A DNA stretch of 64,000 bases from Clostridia bacterium (GTDB lineage Bacteria; Bacillota; Clostridia; Lachnospirales; Lachnospiraceae). How positions within the stretch are numbered: position 1 is the stretch's first letter; the number at the start of each line of letters is the position of its first letter. Positions 9,469 to 32,070 of this stretch are shown here, piece after piece. The stretch spans positions 51,469 to 115,468 of the forward strand of contig CAJTDE010000013.1 of the NCBI GenBank assembly GCA_910574835.1. The letters run 5' to 3'. The notes beneath the pieces were generated by a model that saw only the letters and a list, made by a program, of their open reading frames with translations, was not told the origin of the DNA and did not search any database. A program made the translations under genes and the position numbers.

Positions 9469-11166
9469 CTACCTTCCAATCAATACGGTTTTCCCGCAAA
9501 AGGCAAAGCCGTATTTTCGTATTCTGTCCTTTGGAATCCCTTTTTCTGTCAATACGGCTGCATAGCGCTTCTCTTCTATCTGACGTACCGCCGCTCTCAC
9601 CGTGTCCGTAAGCTCCGGCTCTTCGTCCGTATCCTGAACCTTAAATTCAATGATAATCCCGTCTTCTTTTTTCGGATCTCTTGGTTCCAGCATTACATCA
9701 TATCGGCCAAAACCGCTTTCGCGATTCGAAGTCAGCGTATATCTGTCAGCAAGGTCAACCATCAGCCCGAGAACAAACCCATGATAGAAGCGCTCCGGCT
9801 CCTGCCACGACGGATTTTTTCCCGTATCAAAATAGCTGAATGTTGCGAAAGCTACTTTATTCATGTACACATTCATTGCTTTGATATCATCTGTCAGCAA
9901 TGCTTTGACAAAATCATTGTACACGTAGGACACTCTGCCAAACCATTTACGGATCATATTGCCAAACATAATCCGTACCTCCAGATTTGTAAGGCAAAGC
10001 TCGTAGACCTGTACCCAGTCGCCATAAGCCTGCGTCCGTGTTTCGATGCTTTTTACTCTCAGATATCCGCTGGCCAGCAGAAGGCTCCAGACTGCCTGTT
10101 CATCCCGATCCAATTGATTGTATACAATCTGCTCGTCAATTGCCGCATGGATGGATTCTCCGCAGAGTAATTTTTCAAACTCCTGCTTAATTTTTTTATC
10201 TCCTTCCTGAACCAGCTTCCCTGCCAATGTATTCGAGCTGGAGTTGGCCCAATAGGTTCCCAGCTTTTTTGCCTTTAAATAATTGATAATAGACCACGGA
10301 TTATAAATATCCGTTCGTTTTCCAAAAGTAAAGCCGTCATACCAGCTTTTTACATCTGCTCTTTGCTCTGACAGTCCAAACTCCTCCAAAGCATCGAAAA
10401 CCTCCTGCTCCGTAAAGCCGAAGCTATCCTCATATACTTCTGATGTAGTTGTTACCGCCTGTAAATTATTTAAATCTGAAAAAATGGATTCTTTGCTAAT
10501 CCGGGTGATTCCTGTCATAAGAGCACATTCCAGATAAGGATTTGTCTTAAAGGTTGCATTAAACAGGCTTCGGATAAAAGAAGTTATCTCCTCCCAGTAT
10601 CCGTTTACATAGGCTTCCTGCATGGGTGTGTCATATTCGTCTAAGAGAATAATGACCTTTTTCCCATAATACCGCGAAAGGTAGCCTGACAGCATTTTCA
10701 GAGAAAAAGAGGCTTGATAATCCTCCATATCTACGGATACGCTTCGGAAATCCTGCTTTTCCGATTCATTTAAAAAGTCTTCCTGAAGCAGAAAATCGTA
10801 TTGATTGTAAATGTTCTTGATAATGCGGCAGATTGCCTTCCGTGTCTGGTCAAAGCTTGTCTCTTTCACATCCGCAAAGCTGATCATGATCACAGGGTAG
10901 GTGCCCTGCAATTCCCTGTATTGTGCATTTTTCCAGATATTCAATCCTTCAAACAGATCTCCCCTGCCGGCATAATCTACGGAGAAGAATTTCTCTGCCA
11001 TGCTCATGGTCAGTGTCTTTCCGAATCTTCTCGGGCGCGCGATCAAGGTTACACTGTCCTTCTGCTCCCACCACTCCTGTATAAACGAGGTCTTGTCCAC
11101 ATAAAAACAATTTTCTCTTCGGATTGTTTCAAAATCCTGTTGTCCGATTCCTACTGTTCTTGGCAT
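9469..11166 (-). CDS. AAA-ATPase-like protein with PD-(D/E)XK nuclease-like domain (DUF1703 family), copy 1
   Basis: A protein of about 565 residues. The N-terminal AAA-ATPase-like domain begins IGQQDFETIRRENCFYVDK and carries a Walker-A-like RPRRFGKT (glycine-poor, typical of this family) and a Walker B IILLDEYDTP near residue 180. The C-terminal domain is a PD-(D/E)XK nuclease-like fold with RYDVMLEP followed by IIIEFKVQ. The family is highly duplicated in gut bacteria and its role is not established. I place the start at ATG 11166, 7 bases after AAAGGAGG, rather than at the upstream codon at 11220. It ends 5 bases before the metG promoter. A second member lies at 30472-32070. Confidence 0.85.
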   Translation of the reverse strand: MPRTVGIGQQDFETIRRENCFYVDKTSFIQEWWEQKDSVTLIARPRRFGKTLTMSMAEKFFSVDYAGRGDLFEGLNIWKNAQYRELQGTYPVIMISFADVKETSFDQTRKAICRIIKNIYNQYDFLLQEDFLNESEKQDFRSVSVDMEDYQASFSLKMLSGYLSRYYGKKVIILLDEYDTPMQEAYVNGYWEEITSFIRSLFNATFKTNPYLECALMTGITRISKESIFSDLNNLQAVTTTSEVYEDSFGFTEQEVFDALEEFGLSEQRADVKSWYDGFTFGKRTDIYNPWSIINYLKAKKLGTYWANSSSNTLAGKLVQEGDKKIKQEFEKLLCGESIHAAIDEQIVYNQLDRDEQAVWSLLLASGYLRVKSIETRTQAYGDWVQVYELCLTNLEVRIMFGNMIRKWFGRVSYVYNDFVKALLTDDIKAMNVYMNKVAFATFSYFDTGKNPSWQEPERFYHGFVLGLMVDLADRYTLTSNRESGFGRYDVMLEPRDPKKEDGIIIEFKVQDTDEEPELTDTVRAAVRQIEEKRYAAVLTEKGIPKDRIRKYGFAFCGKTVLIGR

Positions 11167-11354
11167 ATTTCTACCTCCTTTCCCCAGCTTTTTCCCGAAC
11201 ATTGTTTTTCTCTGCTCCACAGGATTGTTAAATTCTGTCTTTCTTATAATATACAGGAAACCTCCCCTAAATACAATGTCAAAACCGGAATAATAAATAG
11301 CATTTCTTCCCGGCTTTCCTCATAGAATACACCAACAATATTTCTGGTGAGAAT

Positions 11355-13106
11355 ATGAAACGTAAAAAGCTTTTGATTGCAGGCATACTCCTGCTTCTTT
11401 TTCTGTGCTGCGGCGTTTTTTTACTTCCCCGGCTTCAGGGAACTTCCGCTGAAACTGCGGATGAGGCATTTGAGCGCTTTACTCATACATTATTTCTGAA
11501 CGAGGTTTCCTCTAATGCTCTGACACTTCACTACACGCTCTCGGAACCGGAGCGTTTTGGAATTACGGATGTTCCTTCCGCTTTTTGTCTCTACTCCAAG
11601 GATTCCTCCGATGCGGCGGCTGCCGGTCTGGAAAATACCAGGCAGGCGCTTTCCGCCTTTTCCCGGGAGGAGCTTTCCGATTCCAACCGGCTTACTTATG
11701 ATATTTTGTCCTATCAGCTCGAAAAGCAGGCCGCGCTGCTTAATTTTCCATATTATGAGGAAATATTAAGCCCCACCCTGGGCGCCCAGGCACAGCTTCC
11801 GATTCTCCTGGCCGAATATGCTTTTCGATCAGAACAGGATATTGAAAATTATATTTCTCTTCTTTCCACGATTGATGCCTATTATCAAAGCTTGATGGAC
11901 TATGAACAGGAAAAGGCAAAGGCCGGACTGTTTATGTCGGACGAGACGGCGGAGGCCGTGATTGCTCAGTGCCGGGCCTTTCTTTCCAATCCCGGAGAGC
12001 ATTTTCTTCTTTCTACCTTTGAGGAGCGGATTGCTTCCGCAGATTTTCTTTCGGAGGAGAAGGCGGAAAAGTATCTTGCTTCCAACCGGACAGTATTTTT
12101 CGGACATGTAATTCCGGCTTATGAGCTTTTGATTCAAGGTCTGACTAAGCTTAAAGGCTCCGGAAAAAATCCTTACGGACTCTGCTATTATGAGAAAGGC
12201 TCCGATTATTATGAGGCATTGACGGCCGCCGTTACGGGAACCGGGCGGAATATGGAGGAAATCCTGCTGCTGATTGAAGAACAGCTTGACACGGATCTGG
12301 AAACAGTCACTTACCTTGTAAGCCTGAACCCGGAAATTCTGACGTCCGTATCCCGGCAGACAGGACTAACGGAGCCTGCTGTTATTTTGAAAAATCTTCA
12401 GCAGGAAATTTTGGAGGATTTTCCTTCCGCTCCCTCTGTTTCCTGCCAAGTAAAATATGTGGATTCCTCTCTGGAAAAGTATTTAAGCCCGGCTTTTTAT
12501 CTGACGCCGCCTCTGGATCGGATGAATGAGCATGTGATCTATATCAACCCTGCCAATCACTATGACAGTCTTTCTCTTTATACGACCCTGGCTCATGAAG
12601 GGTGGCCCGGGCATCTTTACCAGACGCTTTATGAAAATTCCTGCGGGATTGATCCGGTGCGGAATCTCTTTAACTTTGGAGGGTATACGGAAGGATGGGC
12701 TACCTATGTGGAATGGCTTTCCTATTCTTATGCGATTGCGGATCAAGAGATGGCGGAGCTTTTGGCGGCCAACGGAGCTGTTTCTCTGGGCCTTCATGCA
12801 CGGGCGGATGTGGGGATTCATTATGAAGGGTGGTCCCTTGAAGATACGGAGGCTTTTTTTGCCGGGTATGGCGTGACAAATCCGGAGACGGTATATCAGA
12901 TTTATCAGGCTGTTATTCAAGATCCGGGGAATTATCTGAAATACTATCTGGGAGCGGCTGAGATTCTCAAATTGGAAGGGGCGGCTGAGGAGGTTCTTTC
13001 CGAACGCTTTGTGCTGAAAGATTTTCATACCTTTTTCCTGTCTATGGGGCCGGCGCCGTTTCCGGTGATTGAGGATTATATGGAAGGGTGGATGTCGGAG
13101 CAATAA
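11355..13106 (+). CDS. DUF885-family membrane-anchored zinc-dependent hydrolase-like protein
   Basis: A 583-residue protein. Residues 6-24 form a hydrophobic signal or anchor segment after MKRKK, so the bulk should lie outside the membrane. The diagnostic part is near residues 410-460: YTTLAHEGWPGHLYQ, which supplies the HE..H zinc ligands, and then TEGWATYVEW with a downstream glutamate. This is the signature of the DUF885 family, related to M32-like metallopeptidases; the substrate is not known. It is a single gene, divergent from the AAA-ATPase gene, and ends before a cluster of hairpins. Complete, with no sign of damage. Confidence 0.85.
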   Translation: MKRKKLLIAGILLLLFLCCGVFLLPRLQGTSAETADEAFERFTHTLFLNEVSSNALTLHYTLSEPERFGITDVPSAFCLYSKDSSDAAAAGLENTRQALSAFSREELSDSNRLTYDILSYQLEKQAALLNFPYYEEILSPTLGAQAQLPILLAEYAFRSEQDIENYISLLSTIDAYYQSLMDYEQEKAKAGLFMSDETAEAVIAQCRAFLSNPGEHFLLSTFEERIASADFLSEEKAEKYLASNRTVFFGHVIPAYELLIQGLTKLKGSGKNPYGLCYYEKGSDYYEALTAAVTGTGRNMEEILLLIEEQLDTDLETVTYLVSLNPEILTSVSRQTGLTEPAVILKNLQQEILEDFPSAPSVSCQVKYVDSSLEKYLSPAFYLTPPLDRMNEHVIYINPANHYDSLSLYTTLAHEGWPGHLYQTLYENSCGIDPVRNLFNFGGYTEGWATYVEWLSYSYAIADQEMAELLAANGAVSLGLHARADVGIHYEGWSLEDTEAFFAGYGVTNPETVYQIYQAVIQDPGNYLKYYLGAAEILKLEGAAEEVLSERFVLKDFHTFFLSMGPAPFPVIEDYMEGWMSEQ

Positions 13107-13436
13107 GTGTTTTCTTTCATTAAAGTGGTAAAATTATTGGGATGTATTGCTTTTGTCATTCCCTGTTGGTAATCTTTTGTATTATTAGTAATGATATGAG
13201 GTAAAGACTCCCCGGTCAAGGAGAGTCTTTTAGAAAAAGCTATCCGCCAATGCCCGCTCTGCGAGCCAGAGCGCGGTAACAGTATATGCAGATATGGAAA
13301 AAGAGTTGCATGTAACAACTCTTTTTTCCCAGAAAAGCCTTGCGGCCAATCTCCCTTACGAGACTAGATAACTTATTTGTCTATGCCTTAATTATAGCAT
13401 TTCCAATAGGGAAGTCAAAAAAATTTACAGTTGATG
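13107..13436. other. Gene-free interval with three hairpins, ending in a bidirectional terminator
   Basis: This gap separates two convergent genes. It holds hairpin 13203-13230 (8-bp stem), hairpin 13255-13273 (7-bp GC-rich stem, 5-base loop) and a strong 11-bp hairpin at 13298-13326 with A-run and T-run, which can terminate on both strands. The first two are not needed for termination; a small RNA is possible but no convincing promoter was found. Confidence 0.6.
13298..13327. terminator. Bidirectional intrinsic terminator
   Basis: An 11-bp stem (13298-13308 with 13316-13326) has a 7-base loop, begins with A5 and ends with a T-run. It serves both convergent flanking genes. Confidence 0.8.
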
Positions 13437-14711
13437 CTATCTCGATAGCATCTGAAGCAACATCCAATTTGCCCGGAAAGGCCGCATCAGGTTCCAGTAT
13501 CCGATCCCCAGGAATCCATATTCTATAGCAGTCCGAAGCTTTACTTCCATACTTCTCACATCCTCGAACCATACTTCATGTGTCACTCCGCTGCGCTCAT
13601 AGGTATACCAGGGGCTTTGAGCTGTCTCATCGTATTGGATCGACGCTCCCTGTATGGCCGCCCGCCGGACTGCCTCTGCATTTCCCATGATTTCCGCAAC
13701 GGATTCTCCCCTCACGAAAGGCAGCGTCCAGTCGTAGGCATAGTTTGGGATGCCCATCAGAATTTTATTCCGCGGTATTTCCGTAACCGCATAGTCCAAT
13801 ACCTGGCGGACCTTGTTGATCGGAGCGATGGCCATAGCCGGGCCGTGCTGATGTCCCCACTCATAGGTCATTAAAAATACATGATCCGCATTGGCCCCAA
13901 GAAGCGCATAGTCCATGCCCTCATAGAGAAGTCCCCTCTGTTCACCCGAGGTTTTTGGCGCCAGGGCTACGGAAACCTGCCATCCTTCCCGGTTCATGGC
14001 CTCCCTGAGATTACCCACAAAAGCAGCGTAGCCTTCCCGATCCTCCGGAAGAATATATTCAAAGTCTACATCCACTCCGGCATAGCCCTGTTGTCTTACG
14101 GTTTCCAGCAGGTTTTCAATCAGAATCTGCTGCATTTGCGTATCCTGGGAAACTGCTTTTACCAGCTGGTTATTAAAATTGCCCTGCTCTGAAAACGGAG
14201 TTAATACCAGAATCGGCCGGATGCCCATCTGCCAGGCCAAAGAAATCATCCAATTCTCCGATATCTGCGGCGGAATCAAGGCTCCGGCTGTTGTAAAGCC
14301 GTAGGAGAAGATCAAAAGCTCATCCAGATACAGCAGGGCTTCTCTTAAAACCGCTTCCTCGATAAAGGGGTAGGCATATCCGGTCACGTATAGGTTGTTG
14401 TCCTCCTGTCCCCGGTAGCGGATCACCAGGCTTTGCCCTGCGCGCAGGTAAGGCTGTTCCAACAGATAGGGATTGTTCCGGTAGAGCTGTCTTTCCGTCA
14501 TACCATAGGCTGATGCGATTTCCTCCGTCGTCTCTCCCTCCGATACCGTATGGATGAGAGCGGGAATTAAAACGAGCACCGCCATTCCTGCCGGAAGGTA
14601 GGGCAGTACTGACAATTGATTGTCATATATCAGCCTCTGCGGGGATACGCCATATAAGGCTGCAATGCTTTCCGGCGTGTCGCCCGGTTGAACCACATAA
14701 ATTTCCATCAT
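13437..14711 (-). CDS. LysM-LysM-GH18 spore peptidoglycan hydrolase (YaaH/SleL-like)
   Basis: A 424-residue protein without a signal peptide, as is usual for spore-coat proteins made in the mother cell. Two LysM domains (residues about 3-48, YVVQPGDTPESIAALYG, and 52-97, HTVSEGETTEEIASAYG) bind glycan. The rest is a GH18 barrel with the catalytic DxxDxDxE-type motif as GVDVDFEYI near residue 215. In spore-formers such proteins (YaaH, SleL) act as N-acetylglucosaminidases on cortex fragments during germination. The neighbouring spmB is also a sporulation gene. The start may be the first or second of two adjacent ATG codons. The 5' leader holds two tandem hairpin repeats. Confidence 0.9.
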   Translation of the reverse strand: MMEIYVVQPGDTPESIAALYGVSPQRLIYDNQLSVLPYLPAGMAVLVLIPALIHTVSEGETTEEIASAYGMTERQLYRNNPYLLEQPYLRAGQSLVIRYRGQEDNNLYVTGYAYPFIEEAVLREALLYLDELLIFSYGFTTAGALIPPQISENWMISLAWQMGIRPILVLTPFSEQGNFNNQLVKAVSQDTQMQQILIENLLETVRQQGYAGVDVDFEYILPEDREGYAAFVGNLREAMNREGWQVSVALAPKTSGEQRGLLYEGMDYALLGANADHVFLMTYEWGHQHGPAMAIAPINKVRQVLDYAVTEIPRNKILMGIPNYAYDWTLPFVRGESVAEIMGNAEAVRRAAIQGASIQYDETAQSPWYTYERSGVTHEVWFEDVRSMEVKLRTAIEYGFLGIGYWNLMRPFRANWMLLQMLSR

Positions 14712-15508: not shown

Positions 15509-15568
15509 TTGACCGCCTGCCGAAAGCTTTTTTTCTATTCTATGACATCAGATGCTGAAATATTTCTT
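15509..15568. repeat. Left copy of 60-bp imperfect direct repeat flanking the defence island
   Basis: Matches 21542-21600 in the same orientation. The first 35 bases differ by one substitution and one T-run indel; the tail is more diverged but ends in the same 11 bases. The copies enclose about 6.0 kb. Confidence 0.75.
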
Positions 15569-15572
15569 ATAC

Positions 15573-15635
15573 AAAAAGAAGCTGTCAAAAACTCGCAAAG
15601 ATCCCGAATATCTGTCTTTGCGTTTTTAACAGCCT
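15573..15635 (-). terminator. Terminator of the BREX-type ATPase operon
   Basis: On the minus strand a long stem (15579-15601 with 15615-15635, small bulges) is followed by a T-run. It lies directly after the stop of the last ATPase gene. Confidence 0.8.
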
Positions 15636-15643
15636 CTCATGCC

Positions 15644-16837
15644 TTACAGAAAATCATCTAAAGAAGGAACATCCTCCGTAAAAATCTCTTTCCCCAAGTC
15701 ATTGATTGTGGTCTTTCCAGCCTTTCCATACTGATAGAGCTGATCCAGAAATTCTATCGCCGCCCGTATCCGGGTCCGCAGCAGATACCCTCCGGATTGA
15801 ACCGCCTCTTCCAATGTTTCTATAGATAAGGCCGGAGTCCAGTCATAAGCCCTTCCATGAAATTCCTGTATCTTGCGCAGTACCTCGTGGATCTCCTCCT
15901 TCGTCAGAGGCAATAGCTGAGGCGCCCCTGCCAGCATGTTCAAAATTGTCCGGGCCGGTTCCGGTTCCTCCGGGTAAACTGTCTCCAGATTCTCATATTC
16001 GTGCTTCCCTTCAATCACATCCTCCACGTAAGATGCGCTGAGTGCAAAAAGGCTGAAGGTCCGCTCCGGACACCGATCAGGAAGAAGAAAGTTTGCCATA
16101 TTCCGGTAGGCATTGAGCCTTGCCTTTTTCCCGAGCCTTCCGATAAGCTCTGTCTCATCCAGCAGAATCACCCAGCCATGATACCCCATCTGTGTAAACA
16201 AATAACTCATAAAAGAAAAGTAATCCCGGCAGTGCTTCGTCTTGGTAAAGTTCACATTGTACTTCACCGGCTGTCCGAAAATACGGCGGTAAATCTTCTT
16301 CAGGGGCGCATTAGCTATAAAGTCTCCCTCCAAATCCGCCTGGAGAAGAAATTTCTCATCCGAATCCTCCGTATTCAGATAAGACCGGAACAGATAATAC
16401 AGCTTATCCGACTCCAGCTGCTTTGCCGCATACAGAAGCATCTCGTTTGCAATGGGACTGTTGGCCGAAATCTTCTCCAGCTCATACATAAACCCCGGCT
16501 GCCTGCGCTTGGGAAGATAGGTATTCTGCAAAACCTTTTGATAAATCAGATACAGCTTGTCCATAGGCGTCTCTTTGCTCAAGGAAAGATAGGAGACAAC
16601 CATATTGTTCGAATGAGCCAGATTAAATACGGTATTCAAAAGATGGGTCTTTCCCTCTCCATACTTTCCGCTGATCACCATTCCGCCGGAACGGCCCTGT
16701 TCGCACACGGCATCCAGACGATCCGAAATTTCCTTCATAACCCTGGGCCTTGCCTCAGAAAAATACTGTCCCACAGCCCGGGAAGGAATACCGGAACGCA
16801 ATGCTTCCACAATATGCCTGGCTTCCATATCATACAT
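15644..16837 (-). CDS. BREX-type ATP-binding protein, BrxD/DUF2791-like
   Basis: A 397-residue P-loop ATPase. Features resembling BrxD/DUF2791 are the N-terminal region HIVEALRSGIPSRAVGQYF, Walker A SGKYGEGKTHLL near residue 58, Walker B WVILLDETELIGR near residue 225, and the ending with QSGGYLLRTRIRAAIEFLDQL, an arginine-bearing helix seen in STAND/AAA-type ATPases. In BREX these ATPases support phage resistance, but no PglX methylase or PglZ gene is present here. It overlaps the preceding ATPase gene by 8 bases. Third and last gene of a minus-strand operon. Assignment to the family is good; the role is inferred. Confidence 0.8.
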   Translation of the reverse strand: MYDMEARHIVEALRSGIPSRAVGQYFSEARPRVMKEISDRLDAVCEQGRSGGMVISGKYGEGKTHLLNTVFNLAHSNNMVVSYLSLSKETPMDKLYLIYQKVLQNTYLPKRRQPGFMYELEKISANSPIANEMLLYAAKQLESDKLYYLFRSYLNTEDSDEKFLLQADLEGDFIANAPLKKIYRRIFGQPVKYNVNFTKTKHCRDYFSFMSYLFTQMGYHGWVILLDETELIGRLGKKARLNAYRNMANFLLPDRCPERTFSLFALSASYVEDVIEGKHEYENLETVYPEEPEPARTILNMLAGAPQLLPLTKEEIHEVLRKIQEFHGRAYDWTPALSIETLEEAVQSGGYLLRTRIRAAIEFLDQLYQYGKAGKTTINDLGKEIFTEDVPSLDDFL

Positions 16838-18005
16838 CTTCCTTCACCTCCTGCATCGCTGTCCGGACCAGTCCCGGGATACCGACAGCCCCCGTTCTGG
16901 CCTGACGCAAAATCTCCTGCGCCGCCTCCCTGTCAAGGGGCCTGACAAAAATGCTGTTCTGCTGCCCGGCCAATGCTTCGGACATGCTTATGATAACCTC
17001 CTCCGTATACTCCTGAGCTGCCAGACGGTCCAGATCCACCATATCCGAAAACCGGTTAAACCGCTCTCCCACAATCTCATTTTGAATCCGCATCCAGAGA
17101 GCCTGGTAAGACTTAAGTCCTGCATTTTCATCATCTGTCAGCCCCCGATCAAAGGCATACACAAACATAATATGCTTCATACTGTCAATATCGTCAATGA
17201 GCTGGCGGATGCTTTCATAGGTATCCTCACGCTTCATCTTCGTATAATGGACAGGCTCCAGACTGGAACGGCTGATGAGAATCTCCATATCATCAATAGC
17301 AATAAACAATCCGGAATATCCTCCCATGCGGATAACTTCCGCCAGAGAGCAGAGCATATGGCGGGCATTGTACTTTGTAATCCGGCTGGGGTAAAATCCC
17401 AGCGCCCGAAGCTGTGACAGCTTAATGGTGCGATCCCCTGCAAGCCAGGCCAGAAGCAATTCCCGGTTTTGTCCCTCCAGAACCGGATATCCCAGAATAC
17501 TTCCCGTAAGCATGCTGCATGCAAGGGCAAAATTATTATCCAGCATGGGATTGTCCAAAAAGATCTGCTTCAGCTGCGTTCGGATCTCCCTCTTTGTAAT
17601 TGCATCCCCCGAACCGTTCTGGGAAAGATAATCAATAAACTTCATTCCCTCCGGAATTTCCTCAGCTTCAAATCCCATTTCTTTTATCAAATAGCGGCTG
17701 ACCCCTTCCAGGCAGTTCAGGATATCGCATTGACGGAAAACCTCTATGTAAATCTCCCTGAAATCATGCATCCAAATATCCCGGGCCGAAAATACGGCTG
17801 TTTTATAGCCCTCTCTTCGTGCCGTTCCTGTGACCAGCTTCAAAAAATAGCTTTTGCCGCTTCCCTCTCGTCCTGACACAAACTTAATCTTGCTGCCGCC
17901 GTCCCGTATATATTCCCGGAGATACTTTGCTTCCCAGAAATCGGTAAGAAACTCTATTCCGCAGGCTGGCTTCCGATCCGCTCCCTCTTCAAACTCCAGC
18001 CTCAT
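16830..18005 (-). CDS. Second BREX-type ATP-binding protein (DUF2791-like paralogue)
   Basis: A 391-residue P-loop protein, distantly similar in layout to its downstream neighbour. Walker A is SGREGSGKSYFLK near residue 50; Walker B is GLFIAIDDMEIL near residue 240; a sensor-like segment MFVYAFDRGLTDDE follows. The start is GLEFLT-like (CGIEFLTDFWEAKYLREYI), typical of BREX ATP-binding domains. It overlaps the upstream gene by 4 bases (ATGA) and the downstream one by 8, so the two ATPases are likely subunits of one complex. I cannot place it more exactly than the BrxC/BrxD-related group. Confidence 0.75.
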   Translation of the reverse strand: MRLEFEEGADRKPACGIEFLTDFWEAKYLREYIRDGGSKIKFVSGREGSGKSYFLKLVTGTARREGYKTAVFSARDIWMHDFREIYIEVFRQCDILNCLEGVSRYLIKEMGFEAEEIPEGMKFIDYLSQNGSGDAITKREIRTQLKQIFLDNPMLDNNFALACSMLTGSILGYPVLEGQNRELLLAWLAGDRTIKLSQLRALGFYPSRITKYNARHMLCSLAEVIRMGGYSGLFIAIDDMEILISRSSLEPVHYTKMKREDTYESIRQLIDDIDSMKHIMFVYAFDRGLTDDENAGLKSYQALWMRIQNEIVGERFNRFSDMVDLDRLAAQEYTEEVIISMSEALAGQQNSIFVRPLDREAAQEILRQARTGAVGIPGLVRTAMQEVKEDV

Positions 18006-18784
18006 AGTTCTCCCCCTTGTTGAAAGAAGCGAATGGTTGCCAGGAATCTTTCCTTACCGTCCTTGTCAAGAATCCGAATCGCCTTATTCTGCTTTCGGCT
18101 TGGCCCGAACTGGAACTTCCTCCCGTTCTTTGTCTCCTCAATGCCCGAAGCGTACAGCCTTGCCAGGTCAAAGGCAAAGCTCTGCTGATCATAGTCCTTT
18201 CGGAAGCGGCTCATAGGCGCCAGTAATTTGTACAAATTAGTCAGATAAACATCCGCCGAATCATGCCTGCCAAGCTTCAAAACGGCCAAATCGTAAGCAT
18301 CCGCAAGTTCATTTACAAATGCCTGGGCATTAAAGGAAACCCGATTCAGCTTTTCCTGTCCGGCTTTTACCGTATTTACAAGGCTTAAGGGCCGCATACA
18401 GGGAAGCTTTTTCCGATCCAGATACACATCCTGATTCTCCGCGTCCAGCTTTACCTTATAAGGAAACATCTCATAAATCGGGAACTCTCCTCTCACATCC
18501 ACACCCTTTTCCGCACAGACCGAAAGCATCTGTTCCGCAAAATCTCCTTCTGCAAAATAGGCCTTTGAATCAAAGCTCTCGACCGTATCCTTTACATCTT
18601 CAAGGGCCGTCTTAAGGACTCCGCAGGCTTCCTGCATAGCGCTCACATCCCGCATAAGACTTTTTAGATCTCCGCCCTCTGTCTCCTTCATCACTGCCTT
18701 AAACAGCCTTTGCATAAGAGCAAGGCTGTCCTTCAAAGACTTCTCCCGGGGCTGTAAGGTTTCATACAATTCTTCATAATTCAT
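18002..18784 (-). CDS. Unknown 260-residue protein, first gene of the ATPase operon
   Basis: I do not recognise this protein. The N-terminal 75 residues are strongly helical and probably coiled coil (LKDSLALMQRLFKAVMKE, then LKTALEDVKDTVESF). The central part has MFPYKVKLDAENQDVYLDRKK, a beta-rich segment, and the C-terminus ends in NKAIRILDKDGKERFLATIRFF. No signal peptide or membrane segment and no obvious catalytic motif. It is read first from a good promoter (18839-18867) and overlaps the next gene by 4 bases. The position suggests an adaptor or sensor for the two ATPases. Confidence 0.75.
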   Translation of the reverse strand: MNYEELYETLQPREKSLKDSLALMQRLFKAVMKETEGGDLKSLMRDVSAMQEACGVLKTALEDVKDTVESFDSKAYFAEGDFAEQMLSVCAEKGVDVRGEFPIYEMFPYKVKLDAENQDVYLDRKKLPCMRPLSLVNTVKAGQEKLNRVSFNAQAFVNELADAYDLAVLKLGRHDSADVYLTNLYKLLAPMSRFRKDYDQQSFAFDLARLYASGIEETKNGRKFQFGPSRKQNKAIRILDKDGKERFLATIRFFQQGGEL

Positions 18785-18838
18785 TTTCTTATCCTCATCT
18801 CTTGTATATTAATCTGTCTGCTGCAAATTTCTATAAAA

Positions 18839-18867
18839 AGTATATACGATAGCCCGGGAGTTTTCAA
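18839..18867 (-). promoter_or_regulatory. Promoter of the BREX-type ATPase operon
   Basis: On the minus strand TTGAAA (18862-18867) and TATACT (18839-18844) are 17 bases apart, 55 bases before the start of the 260-residue gene. The surrounding 290-bp divergent region holds no gene. Confidence 0.75.
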
Positions 18868-19020
18868 TCTTTATTCCCGAAAAATGTGCGCAAACACCCC
18901 GCGGAACAGTAATGTGTGAACTGTACGGCCCCATAAACAGCAGTTGTTTAAATTGCTAAAATGAAAATTTTTATTTTGCGCATAGGCTAAAGTATTTTTT
19001 TAACTATTTAGCTGCATATA

Positions 19021-19049
19021 TTGATAAAATGGATACTATTTGATATACT
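19021..19049 (+). promoter_or_regulatory. Promoter of the toxin-antitoxin and helicase genes
   Basis: TTGATA (19021-19026) and TATACT (19044-19049) are 17 bases apart. Transcription starting just downstream would exclude start codons before 19075. Related TTAGCTAAA/ATTTAGCT words around it could be an operator for the antitoxin. Confidence 0.75.
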
Positions 19050-19074
19050 AAAATTAGCTAAAGGAGGTGCTGGT

Positions 19075-19317
19075 ATGATTACTGCAACTGCGACTGCAAC
19101 AGAATTACAGAACAATTTTGGTCGGTATTTAAATCTTGTCATGTCCGGGCAGGAGATTGTTGTGACAAAAAATGGTCGGGAGGTAGGCCGCTTTATTCCA
19201 AAGGATGCGGCCGTATCCTATCTGACAGATTCATTGACCGGTATTTTGAAAGGTAACGCAGAACTCGATGAAGCTAAATCCGAAAGGCTGAAGGAAAAAT
19301 ATGAAGCTGTTGATTGA
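19075..19317 (+). CDS. Phd/YefM-type antitoxin
   Basis: An 80-residue protein beginning MITATATATELQNNFGRYL, the standard Phd/YefM N-terminus that dimerises and binds DNA, with MSGQEIVVTKNGREVGRF completing the domain. The last 25 residues are charged and should bind and neutralise the PIN toxin. The start is chosen because AAAGGAGG lies 7 bases upstream and because the promoter occupies the sequence before it. It overlaps the toxin gene by 17 bases. It probably represses its own promoter. Confidence 0.9.
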   Translation: MITATATATELQNNFGRYLNLVMSGQEIVVTKNGREVGRFIPKDAAVSYLTDSLTGILKGNAELDEAKSERLKEKYEAVD

Positions 19318-19708
19318 TGCTAATATACTCTTGGATGTCCTTCAAAGCCGTGATCCGTATGTCCATACATCATCTGTCATCTGGAAATTATGTGAGACGG
19401 AGAGGGCAAAAGGTTATGTTTCCGCCTTAACGTTTGCTAATCTGGTCTATATTATGCGGAAAGAACTTGAACCGAAAAAGATTAAGGAAATTTTACAGGC
19501 TTTATTATTGATTTTTGAATTTGTAGATTTCAGTGTTTCTGATCTTTCCAAAGCGGCGGAACTAGGTTGGGATGATTTTGAGGATGCTATACAGAGTGTC
19601 ACTGCCGACCGTGTACATGCGGATTATATTATCACAAGAAATGTACAAGATTTTGCAAAGAGCAAGGTAATTGCATTTACTCCATCCGAATTGATTGATC
19701 GGATCTAA
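19301..19708 (+). CDS. PIN-domain toxin (VapC-like)
   Basis: A 135-residue PIN-domain ribonuclease. The acidic active-site residues are visible in KLLIDANILLDVL (D6) and later in WDDFEDAIQ and ADYIITRNVQDF (the TRN..D pattern). Such toxins cleave tRNA or other RNA when released from the antitoxin. Overlap with the antitoxin gene indicates coupled translation. It ends 30 bases before the helicase start with no terminator between, so all three genes are probably one transcript. Confidence 0.92.
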   Translation: MKLLIDANILLDVLQSRDPYVHTSSVIWKLCETERAKGYVSALTFANLVYIMRKELEPKKIKEILQALLLIFEFVDFSVSDLSKAAELGWDDFEDAIQSVTADRVHADYIITRNVQDFAKSKVIAFTPSELIDRI

Positions 19709-19738
19709 ATAAGCAGAATTTAATTGGAGCATCTGATT

Positions 19739-21310
19739 ATGAAAAATTCTCTATACACCTGGCAGGAGGAATGTCTGGATCGGTGGTTTCAAAATCAATG
19801 CCGCGGAATGGTGCAGGCAGTTACCGGGTCCGGCAAAACTATGCTGGCTTTGAATGCCATAGAGCGCCTGGAAAAGAATCTGCCCCAAGAACTGCATGTA
19901 AAGATTGTAGTTCCCTCCGGCGCCCTTATGCATCAGTGGAGCCATGCCATAAAAGACTTTCTCTCCGACTGTTCGAAGGTTTTGCAGGGACCGGATTCCC
20001 TTCATCATCGTATCGGACTTCGGGGCGCAGGCTGCAGGACGCCTGTCAACAGACAGTATATGATTTATGTCATTAACTCCGCCCGCTATGAGTTGGCAAG
20101 GCAGATCCTAAGTGAGCTCCGAAGCGGAATCCCTGTTCTGCTCATTGCAGATGAATGTCACCGTTATGAAAGTGAACAAAACCAGTTGATTTTTGAATTT
20201 CTTCCGCATTTGAAACCCTCGGACGCTCCATTCTTTTCCCTTGGCATGTCGGCAACCCTCCCTTCCGGACAGGCAGGAGAGGGACTGGCATCCCTGCTCG
20301 GCCCTGAAATCTACTGTTACGGGATTAAAAAAGCTGCCGCTATGCACACCGTATGCCCCTGCGACATCTTTCATATCAGCCTCTCCTTTCAAAAATCAGA
20401 GCAAATAAAATATGACGAAATCACAGAACAGATGCTGTCTCTGTACCGCAGTCTCGTCAATTCCTACCCTATTTTAAAGTCTTCGAACCGTAAGGAACGC
20501 TTTGAACTTATCTCTGCTCTTACCAAAGAGCCGGATAAAAAGACCGCGAAAGCCGCATCCTCCTACTTAAAGCTCTCCTATATACGAAAAACTCTGGTCT
20601 GCCTGGCATCCGGGCGGATCTCCTGTGCCTTTGAACTGGTGCGGCGCCTGCCGGAAAACGAAAAAATTCTGATTTTCGGCGAGCGTATTTCCCAGGCAGA
20701 TGAACTGTGCCGGCTTTTGCAGAAGCAGTATCCCGAAAAGGTCGGCCGCTGCCATTCCCAAATGGGCCGGACTGCCAATCAGAATACGCTGAATCGTTTT
20801 CGGGACGGATCGCTTCGGATTCTCATTGCCTGTAAATCTATGGATGAAGGCGTTAACATTCCGGAAACCTCCATCGGAATTGTCCTTTCCGGAACTTCTA
20901 TGCAGAGGCAGCGCACTCAGAGGCTGGGACGCATTATCCGAAATGCTGAAAACAAGGAGAGGGCCGCTCTCTATTATCTGCATCTGGCCGAAACAACGGA
21001 GGACCGCTGTTTTCTGCCGGATGGCGGCGTATATCCGGTATATGAACTGGAATATCTTGCAAATAAGCAGATATTTGTTAATCCTGCCTATGATAAAAAC
21101 GCCGCACAGCTTTTGGAGACTATGATCTCTGACGGTATTGACGAAGAACGGCTGCAAGAAGTTCGGCGCTGCCTGCAGCTTGGAAGCGTCCGCTCTGACT
21201 GGCTGCTTTCCGAAAAAGAACTGGAGCAGAGACTTCATTCCTGCTCCTCTGTTTCGGAAAAAAATTATTGGATTTGCATGAAATTGATAAAGGCATTGCC
21301 CCATAGATAG
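19739..21310 (+). CDS. SF2 DEAD/DEAH-type helicase of the defence-like island
   Basis: A 523-residue superfamily 2 helicase of the XPB/Rad25-like type. Motif Q-like TWQEECLDRWF opens it; motif I is VTGSGKTMLAL, motif II is ADECHRY (DECH), motif III is GMSATL, motif V region is ACKSMDEGVNIPE and motif VI is QRTQRLGRIIR. Helicases of this kind pair with BREX-type ATPases in BREX type 2 (BrxHI) and, as I recall, in the Shango defence system. I place the start at ATG 19739 after TTGGAG, not at the TTG at 19724. The last five codons (ALPHR) and the stop lie in a repeated hairpin that also occurs at 22661-22697. Confidence 0.88.
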   Translation: MKNSLYTWQEECLDRWFQNQCRGMVQAVTGSGKTMLALNAIERLEKNLPQELHVKIVVPSGALMHQWSHAIKDFLSDCSKVLQGPDSLHHRIGLRGAGCRTPVNRQYMIYVINSARYELARQILSELRSGIPVLLIADECHRYESEQNQLIFEFLPHLKPSDAPFFSLGMSATLPSGQAGEGLASLLGPEIYCYGIKKAAAMHTVCPCDIFHISLSFQKSEQIKYDEITEQMLSLYRSLVNSYPILKSSNRKERFELISALTKEPDKKTAKAASSYLKLSYIRKTLVCLASGRISCAFELVRRLPENEKILIFGERISQADELCRLLQKQYPEKVGRCHSQMGRTANQNTLNRFRDGSLRILIACKSMDEGVNIPETSIGIVLSGTSMQRQRTQRLGRIIRNAENKERAALYYLHLAETTEDRCFLPDGGVYPVYELEYLANKQIFVNPAYDKNAAQLLETMISDGIDEERLQEVRRCLQLGSVRSDWLLSEKELEQRLHSCSSVSEKNYWICMKLIKALPHR

Positions 21311-21328
21311 TTTATATAGGACAATGTC
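21292..21328 (+). repeat. 37-bp hairpin repeat at the helicase stop
   Basis: A palindromic element with 31 of 37 bases identical to 22661-22697. Its left arm supplies the final helicase codons and the stop codon. No T-run follows, so it is a weak terminator at best. Confidence 0.6.
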
Positions 21329-21604
21329 ATAAATTTAAGAGAAAACCGTTGGATTTCCTCATACGTGTGAAGCAGAACAAAAGCAGACAAAGAAAATGGA
21401 TATATCTATATCCAGACGGCAAAAAACGCGAAAAAGAAATACAGTGCCAAAACACGGATGAGGCGTTGGAATTTTCCTTCCCCATACCATATGACGCTGC
21501 GTATTGTCCACATCCGGTTAAGCACGGGGGAATATGAGACATTGACCGTCTGCCGAAAGCTTTTTTCTATTCTATGATACAGAAAGCGAAAATATTTCTT
21601 TGCC
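21311..21604. other. Interval between helicase and AraC genes, no recognised gene
   Basis: Holds the tail of the hairpin repeat, a 62-codon open frame (21349-21537) without homology that I can see, and the right copy of the 60-bp direct repeat. Probably debris of the insertion border. Confidence 0.5.
21542..21600. repeat. Right copy of 60-bp imperfect direct repeat flanking the defence island
   Basis: Copy of 15509-15568 in the same orientation, starting TTGACCGTCTGCCGAAAGC. It ends 4 bases from the stop codon of the AraC gene at 21605. Confidence 0.75.
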
Positions 21605-28503: not shown

Positions 28504-28511
28504 AACATCTG

Positions 28512-29471
28512 CTATGCCCTGGCCGTAAATTCCTGTCTTCTCCCGAACAGATAGTCTCCCGGTGTCTTTGTCATCTTTGATATCTGATCCAAAAAGAGAT
28601 TTATCTGCAGGTTTTTATTGGCCTGGAGCTTCTCCCGGACGGATGCCAGAAAGCTTTCCTTGCTTGTAGTATCCGTCCCGGCAAAGGTCTGGTCAAGCTC
28701 TACCTTTTGAAGCTTTTCATACTGCTCTTCCTGTTTTTCTTTATAATCTTTTCGGTTGGTCTTTATGAGATCCAGATTTTTCATGGCCCATCGAACCATG
28801 AAAAAGGCGGCTTCCGTATTTCCCGAGGTTTCTTTTAGCTTCTTATAGGTTTCATATTCCTTCGGGGCTTTCATTTCCATAGCATAAAGATACTCCTTTG
28901 AATGGTCCTCGTGGACATAACCGTTTCCGTCGATTTGTATAACATTCTTTACATTATATTCCATCTTACAGTCACTGACCCGCGTTCCCTTTGTACCGAT
29001 CTTGGCAATGGAGCGCATAGCCTCCATAAATGAGGCTTTCGTCTTGCCGTCCATAAATTGATCCGCAAGGTATTGCGCCTTTTCCACACCGAGGCCAATA
29101 CGGGCCAGACGGTCCGCTTCCTCCAGGCCGTGGACATTGTAGGGCAGAAAATCGTTTCGGATAATCTGATAGACATTGTCCTTCAATTCCTGGCTCTTTC
29201 CCTTAAGCGCGTCGGTGATTGCATTGTCAATCCGGGCATAGCCTGTGTGGAACGGGCTGACCGGACCTGTCTCAATCACGATTGTGCCGCGCTTGACAGG
29301 GGCCGCAGGAGATGTGGCCGTACTCTCCGACAGAGCCAATGGTTTCTCGTTCATGGGCTTTTTGGAGGAAAATTCGTTTCTTATCTTCGCATCCTGTTCC
29401 GGGGTAATCTGATCTTTCAGGGGACGGATTGGCTGGTATGGGGCAGAGTGGTAGCAGGTGCATTTTAACAT
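28512..29471 (-). CDS. Conserved-looking protein of unknown function
   Basis: A 319-residue soluble protein that I do not recognise. The first 60 residues are low-complexity and proline/serine-rich (TPEQDAKIRNEF, STATSPAAPVK). The rest is mainly helical and charged, with GYARIDNAITDALKGKSQEL, HGLEEADRLARIGLGVEKAQ and a C-terminal helix ending DQISKMTKTPGDYLFGRR. There is no signal peptide. Ribosome site AAAGGAGG precedes the ATG, so it is a real gene. It stands alone between the lactose cluster and the two-gene insert, and no functional clue comes from its neighbours. Confidence 0.75.
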   Translation of the reverse strand: MLKCTCYHSAPYQPIRPLKDQITPEQDAKIRNEFSSKKPMNEKPLALSESTATSPAAPVKRGTIVIETGPVSPFHTGYARIDNAITDALKGKSQELKDNVYQIIRNDFLPYNVHGLEEADRLARIGLGVEKAQYLADQFMDGKTKASFMEAMRSIAKIGTKGTRVSDCKMEYNVKNVIQIDGNGYVHEDHSKEYLYAMEMKAPKEYETYKKLKETSGNTEAAFFMVRWAMKNLDLIKTNRKDYKEKQEEQYEKLQKVELDQTFAGTDTTSKESFLASVREKLQANKNLQINLFLDQISKMTKTPGDYLFGRRQEFTARA

Positions 29472-29705: not shown

Positions 29706-30437
29706 TCAACCTTTGATAGAATATATATCCGGTACAAACTGATCCGGATATATATCACTTCCGCAATAGCCGCAGACTCCCATCCGCGGCGAATTGCAGA
29801 CCGGCAAAAGCATTTCCTCTCCACACTCATGAGTCTCGGCACAATCTTCACACAGCAAACCGCCTCCCTCATAATAGCATTGTGTGCATATATACACCGC
29901 CGATTTTTTTCCGCATTCCTCACACAAAGTTTCAACCGGATTATTTCTGGACAAGATGATTAATTTCTCTTTCCCGTTGTTCCTGATCCGATAATTTACA
30001 ACCGTTATCATAAGCTCCGTAGTGGAACCGAAATCATATTCATAACCAAAAGTCATTCCTTTTTCCAGCACGGATTTCAATTTATAATTCATATTTTTTG
30101 CCGGTTCGCCCCAGAAAAAATTATCCTGCGGCATAACATCATAGCAGACGCCGTTTATGTCAAACGCACTCAAATGCCCGCAGCATTCTAACCATATATC
30201 CCTTAAAAACCGATCTAAGTCTTTTAATAATGCCGTCTCTTTTATCTCCACGTACAGCCAGTGCTCTCTGTTGTATTTCGGATAAATAGCAAGTTCAAAA
30301 TATCCGGTCTTCTTACCGCCGGTCTCTTCCGCCCATTTTTTCTGACGTTCTTCGCAAACCGGCAGATGCTTGTTCATATAACTGAATGTATATTCTTTTC
30401 CGCAATATTTGCATTTTCCTTTTGTACGTTTTGCCAT
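29706..30437 (-). CDS. Plasmid pRiA4b ORF-3-like protein with zinc-binding ends
   Basis: A protein of about 243 residues. The N-terminus carries a C2H-type zinc motif (CKYCGKEYTFSYMNKHLPVC, residues 8-27). The middle matches the pRiA4b ORF-3 fold: YVEIKETALLKDLDRFLRDIW, LSAFDIN, and the hallmark MTFGYEYDFGSTTELMI. The C-terminus has several CxxC pairs (CEECGKK, CTQCYYEGGG, CEDCAETHEC, CGYCGSDI), likely zinc ribbons. The biochemical role of the family is unknown. Start chosen at ATG 30437 after AAGGAG. Together with the AAA-ATPase gene upstream it forms a two-gene insert bounded by 38-bp repeats. Confidence 0.85.
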   Translation of the reverse strand: MAKRTKGKCKYCGKEYTFSYMNKHLPVCEERQKKWAEETGGKKTGYFELAIYPKYNREHWLYVEIKETALLKDLDRFLRDIWLECCGHLSAFDINGVCYDVMPQDNFFWGEPAKNMNYKLKSVLEKGMTFGYEYDFGSTTELMITVVNYRIRNNGKEKLIILSRNNPVETLCEECGKKSAVYICTQCYYEGGGLLCEDCAETHECGEEMLLPVCNSPRMGVCGYCGSDIYPDQFVPDIYSIKG

Positions 30438-30471
30438 TTTCTGCTTTCTCCTTATGTTTGATACTGCAAAA

Positions 30472-32070
30472 TTAATATTCAAATTTTTCTATTCTACATT
30501 GATGCTTTTTACTTTTCTTTTCATAGTTAATCCCAACAAGCAAAACATTTCCTTTATACTCTTTTAGTGCGGCTGCATACCTTTTATTTTTAATCTGGCT
30601 GATCGCCCCTTCTGCAGTTTTATCCCATTTCAGCTCCAAGATCAAAGCCGGTTTTAATGAAGTGCGTTTAGGAAGAAAAACGATATCAGAAAAGCCCTGG
30701 CCTGCCGGCAGTTCCCTTATAAGAACATAGTCTTTACACGCACTATAATATGCCAGCACAATCACGCTGCTTAGCGAAATCTCGTTATTGTAAACAAGAC
30801 TGGATGTATTTTGCATATGAACTTCCTGTATCATTTCTTCCACGGCTCTTTCATCCATATCTAAAGTTGCCCTGAGCAATGTCTCTGACGCATTTACTGC
30901 TTTTATCACTTCATCCCATCCATCATTTTTAATTGCCCGCAGAAAGACACTTCTCACTTCCTCATTTGGAATAAATACTTCTTTTGTTTTATAATCATAG
31001 GCTAAATATCCCATATGAATCAGCAATGTAATGACATCATCGGCTGAATTAAATGAAGTGATATCATTTTGGAAAGCCTCTACATCAACGTGGCATCTTA
31101 ACCCTCCCAGCATGTCCACAATCAATTGCCTTAATCCCTTAAAATCCATTGCAATATATGTCAGCAGTGATTCATATGTTTCTGTTCCGGACCAGTAATT
31201 TCCAAATTCTCTGCTGTCCAGCGCCTCAACTACGGAATTAGGGCTGTAAATATGTCCAATCTTGTCAAAATAATATCCATCATACCATCTTTTCATTTCC
31301 TTAAATGGCATATCATATTCTTTGCACAGAGCTTTTACTTCTGTTTCTGTAAAACCAATATACTCTGCCATCTGTCTGGCACTGACCATTGTATGTTCCC
31401 TGAAATTATTCAGTGCTGACTGTGTACCGTATTTTTTAATCGGTAAAATTCCCGTGATATAAGCCAGTTTTAAAAATGCTCCTGATGGAGTTCCTTTAAA
31501 TAATCCCCTCAGCAAGTTAATATATTCTCTTTGAAGTTTTTCGTTATTCTTGTCCTCCCTAAACAAGCAATCCCATTCGTCAATAATAATGATAAACTGC
31601 TCTTTTGTAGCGACATTAATTTTTGCCAGCACAGACGGCAATGAAATATCCGTATCTTGAACCCATTCCGAATACGCCATCCTTAATTCGGCAATCACTT
31701 GTTCCTGAATATAACTTACTATTTTAACGGAAGAATCTCTTTTCATTTCCTCAAGCGCATTTCCATATATCCATTGAATATCCAGGAGGAGCACATTATA
31801 TTTATTTAAATGCTTTTCAAATGATTCATCTTGTTTTATCTTAAGTCCGGCAAACAATCTTTCAGAACGACATCCCTTACTATAATATGCCGCAAGCATT
31901 GTTACAGCCGTCGTTTTCCCAAACCTTCTCGGCCTGCTGGAACAAATAAGCGGCCTGTCCTTTCCAATTCGGCTGTTTGTATATTTTATAAGCTCTGTCT
32001 TGTCCACGTACAATTCGGAATTGACAGAAACCGCAAACGGTTCATTTCCCGGATTTAAGTAAATTCCCAT
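30472..32070 (-). CDS. AAA-ATPase-like protein with PD-(D/E)XK nuclease-like domain (DUF1703 family), copy 2
   Basis: A protein of about 532 residues. Its N-terminus (NPGNEPFAVSVNSELYVDK) and Walker-A-like SSRPRRFGKTT mark the same AAA-ATPase-like family as the gene at 9469-11166. Walker B is FIIIIDEWDCLF near residue 165. The C-terminal nuclease-like domain shows FSDIVFLP followed by LILELKWDK, the D...ExK core. The start is ATG 32070 after AAGGAG. It is the first gene of the insert next to spmA. The two copies in this window are clearly diverged, so they are not a recent duplication. Confidence 0.85.
   Translation of the reverse strand: MGIYLNPGNEPFAVSVNSELYVDKTELIKYTNSRIGKDRPLICSSRPRRFGKTTAVTMLAAYYSKGCRSERLFAGLKIKQDESFEKHLNKYNVLLLDIQWIYGNALEEMKRDSSVKIVSYIQEQVIAELRMAYSEWVQDTDISLPSVLAKINVATKEQFIIIIDEWDCLFREDKNNEKLQREYINLLRGLFKGTPSGAFLKLAYITGILPIKKYGTQSALNNFREHTMVSARQMAEYIGFTETEVKALCKEYDMPFKEMKRWYDGYYFDKIGHIYSPNSVVEALDSREFGNYWSGTETYESLLTYIAMDFKGLRQLIVDMLGGLRCHVDVEAFQNDITSFNSADDVITLLIHMGYLAYDYKTKEVFIPNEEVRSVFLRAIKNDGWDEVIKAVNASETLLRATLDMDERAVEEMIQEVHMQNTSSLVYNNEISLSSVIVLAYYSACKDYVLIRELPAGQGFSDIVFLPKRTSLKPALILELKWDKTAEGAISQIKNKRYAAALKEYKGNVLLVGINYEKKSKKHQCRIEKFEY

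Follow-up and report, generated by a model that had tools for sequence, protein, structure and literature searches.

This report concerns a group of genes at positions 15644 to 21310 of a 64,000-nucleotide stretch of DNA from a Clostridia bacterium of the family Lachnospiraceae (contig C13 of genome G000 in our numbering; the whole stretch is referred to below as the window). Three overlapping genes on the minus strand encode U260, which is an unnamed protein of 260 residues, and two P-loop ATPases, ATPA and ATPB. They lie back to back with a plus-strand toxin-antitoxin pair and a superfamily 2 (SF2) helicase, HEL (Table 1). This arrangement had been described in an initial annotation made from the sequence alone; all of these genes are open frames as placed there, and the Pfam matches and the Walker A and B motifs agree with it. 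ATPB and ATPA overlap by 8 nt and ATPA and U260 by 4 nt, and HEL as listed starts at a TTG, with an in-frame ATG at 19739. Leaving aside the toxin-antitoxin pair, to which we return below, the set is a compact, self-contained four-gene cassette—U260, ATPA, ATPB and HEL. These four genes travel as one unit, the three-gene core U260-ATPA-ATPB stays together across the phylum, and the partner of this core changes by clade.

Table 1. Features of the cassette and its surroundings, in window coordinates
Feature	Position	Strand	Description	Basis or remark
ATPB	15644..16837	-	397 aa, second BrxC/BrxD-family AAA+ ATPase	open frame and Pfam
ATPA	16830..18005	-	391 aa, first BrxC/BrxD-family AAA+ ATPase	open frame and Pfam
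U260	18002..18784	-	260 aa, unnamed protein, proposed adaptor	open frame
Phd-type antitoxin	19075..19317	+	ATG at 19075; PhdYeFM_antitox 32.4 bits	inserted between U260 and HEL, non-core
PIN-domain (VapC-like) toxin	19301..19708	+	PIN_3 71.6 bits	insertion shared with Phd gene, non-core
HEL	19724..21310	+	528 aa, XPB/RAD25-like SF2 helicase, divergent from U260	ResIII and Helicase_C
Stretch common to the window and the second carrier G002 (Phd-PIN insertion excepted)	15541..21326			blastn
Imperfect direct repeat (~60 bp), left copy	15509..15568			repeat families D1 and D2
Imperfect direct repeat (~60 bp), right copy	21542..21600			repeat families D1 and D2

Conservation and mobility of the cassette

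Scanning genome contigs with an alignment of U260 returned 115 relatives, and the best 80 loci were fetched, mostly from Lachnospiraceae, Clostridia or Eubacteriales, with two from Bacilli and Erysipelotrichaceae. The gene set is not a product of chance: U260 and ATPA are both present in 80/80 fetched loci, ATPB in 76/80 and HEL in 75/80 (a remnant in L061 counted). The four loci without ATPB are truncated by a contig end, and in the five without HEL the contig ends no more than 725 bp upstream of U260. The order and strand of U260-ATPA-ATPB are constant in all 76 loci that have all three genes, and in 67 of these the two ATPase genes overlap. HEL is more variable in its placement: it is divergent in 71 of 75 loci, whereas L053 and L055 have it downstream, and L069 and L083 have it upstream and co-directional. 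In one locus (L063:10285-11500) ATPB is in two pieces, by frameshift or assembly error.

The cassette is patchy in its occurrence and occupies different sites. Among 250 genomes from the family, 6 have U260, as do 2 of 98 relatives, the own genome being counted in both cases; the latter figure is 2 and not 3 following removal of a false match in G048 (L003), which is a two-component regulator gene. In the congener G007, the sequences that lie on either side of the window cassette are contiguous (97.9% and 97.8% identical), which defines an empty site, and a segment of about 60 bp that is present once at this site occurs twice around the window cassette, with a start-to-start spacing of 6032-6033 bp. 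A second carrier, G002, has its cassette at a different site, with 87.8-90.5% DNA identity to the window over matched blocks (blastn blocks 15541-18925 and 19718-21326 of the window, against L118). The G002 insertion point, ~7 kb from the position of the window cassette, falls between two genes that are 9 bp apart both in the window (28504-28513), where this site is empty, and in G007; conversely, the GATE-MFS interval of G002 itself holds no cassette. The G002 cassette and the one in L004 are probably the same copy. The initial annotation had held that its defence reading would fail if U260 homologues were found mainly next to housekeeping genes or if the set matched a named system exactly; what the neighbourhood survey found is patchy occurrence with the same partner genes kept, in line with that reading.

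Some other features of the surroundings are worth recording. A gene with AAA-ATPase_like and PDDEXK_9 domains lies near the cassette at window positions 9469-11220, and a similar-looking gene, judged by appearance only, lies near the G002 cassette (L118:3088-4686). Two segments of the window (44001-46000 and 30001-32000) have a GC content of 37-38% with a strong negative GC skew, the rest being mostly at 44-50%, and a foreign origin of these segments is possible.

The cassette proteins and known defence systems

Both ATPases belong to the Pfam family BrxC_BrxD (PF10923), with 103.9 bits for ATPA and 92.7 bits for ATPB against a cut-off of 22.2. Their initial description as bacteriophage exclusion (BREX)-type ATPases is thus sound at the family level, but neither is a BrxD proper, since the NCBIfam BrxD model NF033438 gives 70.5 bits for ATPA and 48.9 bits for ATPB, under its cut-off of 350. 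In PADLOC they match BrxD and SngB at 49-71 bits, SngB being the best match of ATPB. Profile comparison (hhalign) aligns ATPB with SngB-type ATPases at 99.7% over nearly the full length, ATPA with the same group at 98.7%, and the two cassette ATPases with each other at 98.5%. The Walker A and B motifs—GKYGEGKT (residues 57-64) and VILLDE in ATPB, GREGSGKS and FIAIDD in ATPA—are conserved in close relatives of both proteins, with at least 95% conservation per column for ATPB GKYGEGKTHLLN across 74 close homologues and conservation of the ATPA GSGK across 72.

Among solved structures, HEL is closest to XPBII and RAD25. Across 71 close homologues there is conservation of its motifs I, II, III, V and VI, and no nuclease domain was seen in it. 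Its motor domains match the XPBII and RAD25 chains and also PbeA, the latter in the helicase part only (residues 252-627 of 672, 202 bits in PADLOC), HEL being without the stretch of ~250 residues that is N-terminal to the PbeA helicase. The NCBIfam restriction helicase model TIGR04095 scores 130.5 bits, under its cut-off of 600. HEL therefore has neither the full-length PbeA match nor the above-cut-off TIGR04095 match that would place it with Dnd/Pbe systems. Its match to SngC-type helicases (93.3%, E 2.8e-7) is restricted to the shared SF2 core, and SngC is not among the best 25 of its 37 PADLOC matches.

U260, for which 1075 homologous protein clusters were found, has no family match in Pfam, PADLOC, NCBIfam or PHROGs and is absent from the viral contigs, plasmids and phages searched. 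Its predicted fold is a helical hairpin (residues 3-69) followed by an alpha/beta domain (70-255), with predicted local distance difference test values of 84.6 and 87.1. A nuclease identity was considered, since D114, D123 and K125 are placed at or next to adjacent predicted strands and the weak Foldseek matches (E 0.2 to 2) include MutH; this idea was dropped because these positions vary among 120 aligned sequences, to L/Y, N/S and R/E. A diverged TerB is not indicated, hhalign against SngA-type (TerB_N/TerB_C) proteins giving 0.3%.

Two known systems invite comparison. Shango is described in PMC10250203 as a TerB-like protein, an ATPase and a DEAD/DEAH helicase, and the cassette resembles it as a small set of partner protein, BrxD-family ATPase and SF2 helicase, with ATPB a remote homologue of SngB-type ATPases. 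It differs from Shango in lacking TerB, in having a pair of ATPases where Shango has a single one, and in its divergent XPB-like helicase and unrelated adaptor, U260. True TerB_N-BrxD-DEAD triads do occur in family and order relatives, and the ATPases of two of them score 535 and 555 Pfam bits, against 104 and 93 for those of the cassette. In BREX type 2, according to PMC12839542, BrxD is an ORC-Cdc6 ATPase suggested to load or activate the helicase BrxHI; a BrxD-family ATPase combined with a helicase, and a proposed role in loading, are what the cassette has in common with this dyad. The ORC class of the cassette ATPases is carried over from that description of BrxD by analogy. However, the cassette has no PglX, PglZ, BrxC or PglW, its ATPases fall far below the BrxD equivalog cut-off, and BrxHI is called Ski2-like in the same source, whereas HEL best matches XPB and PbeA-type helicases.

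The absence of BREX and TerB partners noted in the initial annotation is borne out. Neither PglZ (BrxZ) nor TerB_N was found in the whole own genome, by searches that were positive in 2/6 genomes and 2/14 controls for PglZ and in 2/5 genomes for TerB_N. No methyltransferase (PglX/BrxX) is present among the six cassette proteins or one gene on each side, the rest of the genome not having been searched for PglX. By its sequences, the cassette is neither BREX nor Shango. PADLOC 2.0.0 gives it only partial family matches, and no exact match to a named system was obtained in Pfam, PADLOC or NCBIfam. The earlier suggestion of an undescribed relative is thus upheld in that respect, but nothing suggests that U260 replaces PglX or PglZ, and there is no sign of TerB.

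As regards the openly licensed literature, no description of the U260-ATPA-ATPB core or of a link between this core and clustered regularly interspaced short palindromic repeats (CRISPR) was found in the portions available, including those of PMC10250203, PMC10952713, PMC10853773, PMC10212523, PMC10910872 and PMC5099237. The accessible text of the type I-D review (PMC10212523) and of the rare-CRISPR survey (PMC10910872) does not name the core ATPases as a Cas component, and the only match to DUF2791, PF10923 or BrxC_BrxD is a plain Pgl gene list in the part of PMC5099237 that was available. Searches of this literature for DUF2791 with a helicase, and for BREX-type ATPases with a helicase in Lachnospiraceae, returned nothing. 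The ATPase family and the idea of an ATPase acting with a helicase are already known; as far as could be seen, the adaptor, the tandem ATPases, the swapping of motors and the embedding in CRISPR loci are new.

Distant relatives and the partners of the core

Profile searches extend the core well beyond the family. Of 398 genomes that span the phylum, 14 match a U260 profile and 18 match a wider version of it; by class, matches occur in 4 of 20 genomes of one class and 29 of 113 of another. The counts 18/398 and 29/113 include G345, in which a short U260-like stretch (L208) has no ATPA or ATPB. Of 44 far loci fetched, L208 was left out, and six-frame profile searches find U260 in the remaining 43, to which three genomes contribute two loci each, and the full core in 39/43. 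Contig ends truncate three of the incomplete cores (L194, L205 and L206); the fourth, in L199, lacks both ATPases. The nearest partner of the core is an SF1 helicase with AAA_11/AAA_12 in 14 far loci, type I Cas genes in 7 (L169-L172, L181, L182 and L199; in L172, cas6 alone before the contig end), an XPB-like HEL in 5, an SNF2 helicase in 3 (L174 and L200, with a different SNF2 type in L193) and BrxL in 2. None was seen in 8 loci, 7 of which are truncated within ~365 bp of the core. As a control, 20 windows of 20 kb from genome G702 were compared with the partner references: none of the 20 matched the Cas, SF1, SNF2, BrxL or Hsp70 references above 40 bits, and one matched the helix-turn-helix (HTH) reference at 41 bits.

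The CRISPR-linked cores are encoded within type I loci (I-D and I-B) that have Cas3. Type I-D is represented by L169, which encodes Cas10d (1165 bits), Cas3d, Csc1, Csc2, Cas1 and Cas4 and has a 44-copy CRISPR array; L170 has a Cas3b (625 bits), and L182 a 46-copy array. These loci differ from the window, where no cas gene is present among the genes scanned, and their ATPA copies are without a P-loop. Elsewhere, BREX genes on the opposite strand adjoin the core of L176 (G472:C13), namely those for BrxC (2092 bits) and PglXI (1445 bits), with PglZ farther along the contig. The initial annotation was in this sense incomplete: made from the sequence alone, it could not show a three-gene core whose motor is exchanged and which also occurs inside CRISPR-Cas loci.

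Several far loci show individual peculiarities. G472 has a second core, inside the type I CRISPR locus L170. A MazE-like antitoxin and a PIN toxin lie between cas3 and U260 in L199 (8719-9427), and a PIN gene adjoins U260 in L182 (10857-11450), an echo of the PIN insertion in the window. In L174, a 192-residue protein without a Pfam match is encoded between the core and the SNF2 helicase (12901-13476), with a relative likewise placed in L200. An unusual operon in L177 (3901-10506) consists of the core, an Hsp70-like gene and three long genes, two of which were scanned, both without a Pfam match.

For a tree, the three core proteins of 54 loci were concatenated (1020 columns) and analysed under LG+G4 with a midpoint root. 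The loci were 19 of the 81 close copies (the window and 18 of the 80 fetched) and the 35 partner-bearing far loci, the 8 partnerless ones being excluded; L082 is labelled XPB-like, its HEL lying past the contig end. Partner types group into clades: XPB-like (24 loci, support 91), SF1 (14, support 100), CRISPR (7 together with L193, support 100), BrxL (2, support 100), HTH (3, support 100) and SNF2 (L174 and L200, support 100). Partners have thus been kept for long periods and swapped rarely. On this tree, the SNF2 partner was gained at least twice.

A proposed loader of DNA motors and its alternatives

On balance, we favour the view that the cassette is a mobile antiviral defence module in which ATPA and ATPB, together with U260 as adaptor, would load a DNA motor, here the XPB-like helicase, onto invading DNA. 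The gene neighbourhood supports the defence role; the loading of a motor is what we infer. ATPA and ATPB could form a mixed ring or clamp, which U260 would bridge to DNA and to the motor, and the core would recognise some feature of foreign or replicating DNA. The motor might then unwind or strip the foreign DNA and so block its replication, a route that would need no nuclease in the HEL version. Other versions may end in the action of Cas3 or BrxL; a core embedded in a CRISPR locus would assist Cas3 during interference or spacer capture. The data fit, and extend, the loader idea put forward for BrxD (PMC12839542), with two ATPases of which one can be inactive, a constant adaptor and a motor that varies by lineage. 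A broader version would make U260-ATPA-ATPB a general, hitherto undescribed loader for prokaryotic defence motors (XPB-like, SF1, SNF2, BrxL and a Cas3 arm), with ATPA having become, for some of these motors, a dead subunit of structural use. This version is more tentative, and we would stop short of calling it probable.

Several points weigh against loading by the core, or against its defence role. The nearest partner is not a DNA motor in four far loci (an HTH protein in three, Hsp70 in one), L198 is uncut and has no partner within 7 kb downstream, and in L199, U260 lies inside a type I cas locus with neither ATPA nor ATPB detected by six-frame profile search, possibly through loss or an assembly break. 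Among close relatives, HEL is reduced to a 46-residue remnant in L061 (9428-9568), where U260, ATPA and ATPB are retained. The partner survey has limits of its own: the reference proteins were drawn from the loci being classified, the G702 control is a single genome in which the XPB-like profile was not among the references run, and most far loci (30 of 43, being 28 plus L171 and L172) come from one class. For U260, Foldseek returned nothing for the models at E 0.001 or better, and a winged-helix hint falls under the tool's own meaningful level. Finally, the flanks of the close relatives form no clear defence island. Among 232 of 357 flank proteins (≥120 aa, up to three genes per side plus any between) scanned with PADLOC, strong defence matches are scattered, figures that rest on the best 25 of 54 and 25 of 55 families and have no background set. 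Single strong matches are to a type III methyltransferase (L030) and to one DpdF-like, one GajB-like, one reverse-transcriptase-associated helicase and one PsyrT-like protein, and the commonest match, mad3 (6 and 4 members), is generic-looking. Of the defence-like island initially proposed, what stands is a defence-type set related to BrxD and SngB ATPases, but as a lone cassette rather than an island.

A further point against a simple loader comes from the ATPases themselves. When near and far copies are aligned together, the ATPA P-loop is kept in 37 of 47 sequences and lost in 10, namely all six CRISPR-linked copies that have ATPA, all three SNF2-linked copies and L180, a 3.1-kb contig on which no partner is visible. 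These ten copies speak against a general loader with two engines. In the same alignment ATPB keeps GKT or GKS in 46/46 copies, those of L173, L175 and L203 showing a change at the first glycine only. Since the ATPA P-loop is lost in CRISPR- and SNF2-linked copies while ATPB keeps its motif, the engine that stays constant is likely ATPB, with ATPA as a partner that can be inactive. Set against an ORC/Cdc6-type loader, the cassette shows motifs conserved in close relatives, a linked helicase in 75/80 loci and an ATPA P-loop absent in 10/47 copies; supposing that a loader exists, these sequences would make it an asymmetric ATPase pair.

Of the other explanations, the one that fares best, while still unlikely, is that the core in CRISPR loci serves adaptation, that is, spacer capture with Cas1 and Cas4, from an ancestral role in capturing DNA ends or replication forks and not in loading motors. 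The core does lie between cas3 and cas1 in L169 and L170, and the nearest cas gene in L181 and L182 is cas1, 18 and 54 bp away; moreover, ATPA is inactive by sequence in every CRISPR-linked copy, so its task there may differ. However, the partner in the other clades is a motor or BrxL, no Cas1 being present there within the stretches searched, and the window has only a helicase.

We consider it improbable that the Phd-PIN pair is a working part of the cassette, a guard that kills the cell when the cassette is lost or inhibited. Toxin-type genes do adjoin U260 repeatedly—Phd-PIN in the window, RES-domain proteins at the HEL-U260 spot in L049 and L054, MazE-PIN in L199 and PIN in L182—but the toxin families differ, and a Uma2 putative endonuclease occupies the same spot in L075. 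Contrary to the initial inclusion of the pair in the set, tblastn at E 1e-4 found no relative of either gene in any of the 80 fetched loci. The gap between HEL and U260 is 939 bp in the window against a median of 256.5 bp (76 loci, window included), and exceeds 600 bp between divergent HEL and U260 in only 4 of 75 other HEL-bearing loci. From these comparisons, the pair looks like a late insertion outside the core set.

A housekeeping role, in which the XPB-like helicase and the ATPases act on damaged host DNA, is very unlikely. The best solved relatives of HEL are indeed repair helicases, and the flank genes scanned with Pfam (114 proteins) are mostly for transport, metabolism and signalling; yet so few genomes of the family carry U260, the insertion sites differ among congeners, and elsewhere the core is found in CRISPR-Cas loci and beside BREX genes. 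Even less credible is a Shango variant with a diverged TerB-type U260 and a duplicated ATPase gene, working as TerB, ATPase and helicase: the composition given in PMC10250203 and the affinity of ATPB for SngB agree with it, but U260 does not align with SngA-type proteins, TerB_N is missing from the own genome, HEL is related to SngC-type helicases only as an SF2 protein, and the true triads of relatives have ATPases that score far higher. Equally remote is a module left from a degenerate mobile element, with ORC-like ATPases and a helicase that once served the replication or maintenance of that element. The resemblance to a replication set, the movement as a unit and the flanking direct repeat might recall this, but no integrase, relaxase or transposase is among the top 25 of 158 Pfam families in the 114 flank proteins (no dedicated search was made), no U260 was found in the viral contigs, plasmids and phages, and the core is tied in separate clades to Cas3, BrxL and SF1 or SNF2 helicases.

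The proposal that the core loads DNA motors bears on a wider question, since BrxD-type ATPases are tied to helicases in both BREX and Shango with no known task. A three-gene core with swapped motors, found also in CRISPR loci, makes the helicase-loader idea directly testable, and the lineages with a P-loop-less ATPA tell which of the two ATPases must burn ATP. If the proposal is true, an ATPase arm has gone unrecognised between the cas3 and cas1 genes of some type I CRISPR systems, and, should the more tentative general-loader version hold, innate and adaptive immunity would share one DNA-targeting ATPase core.

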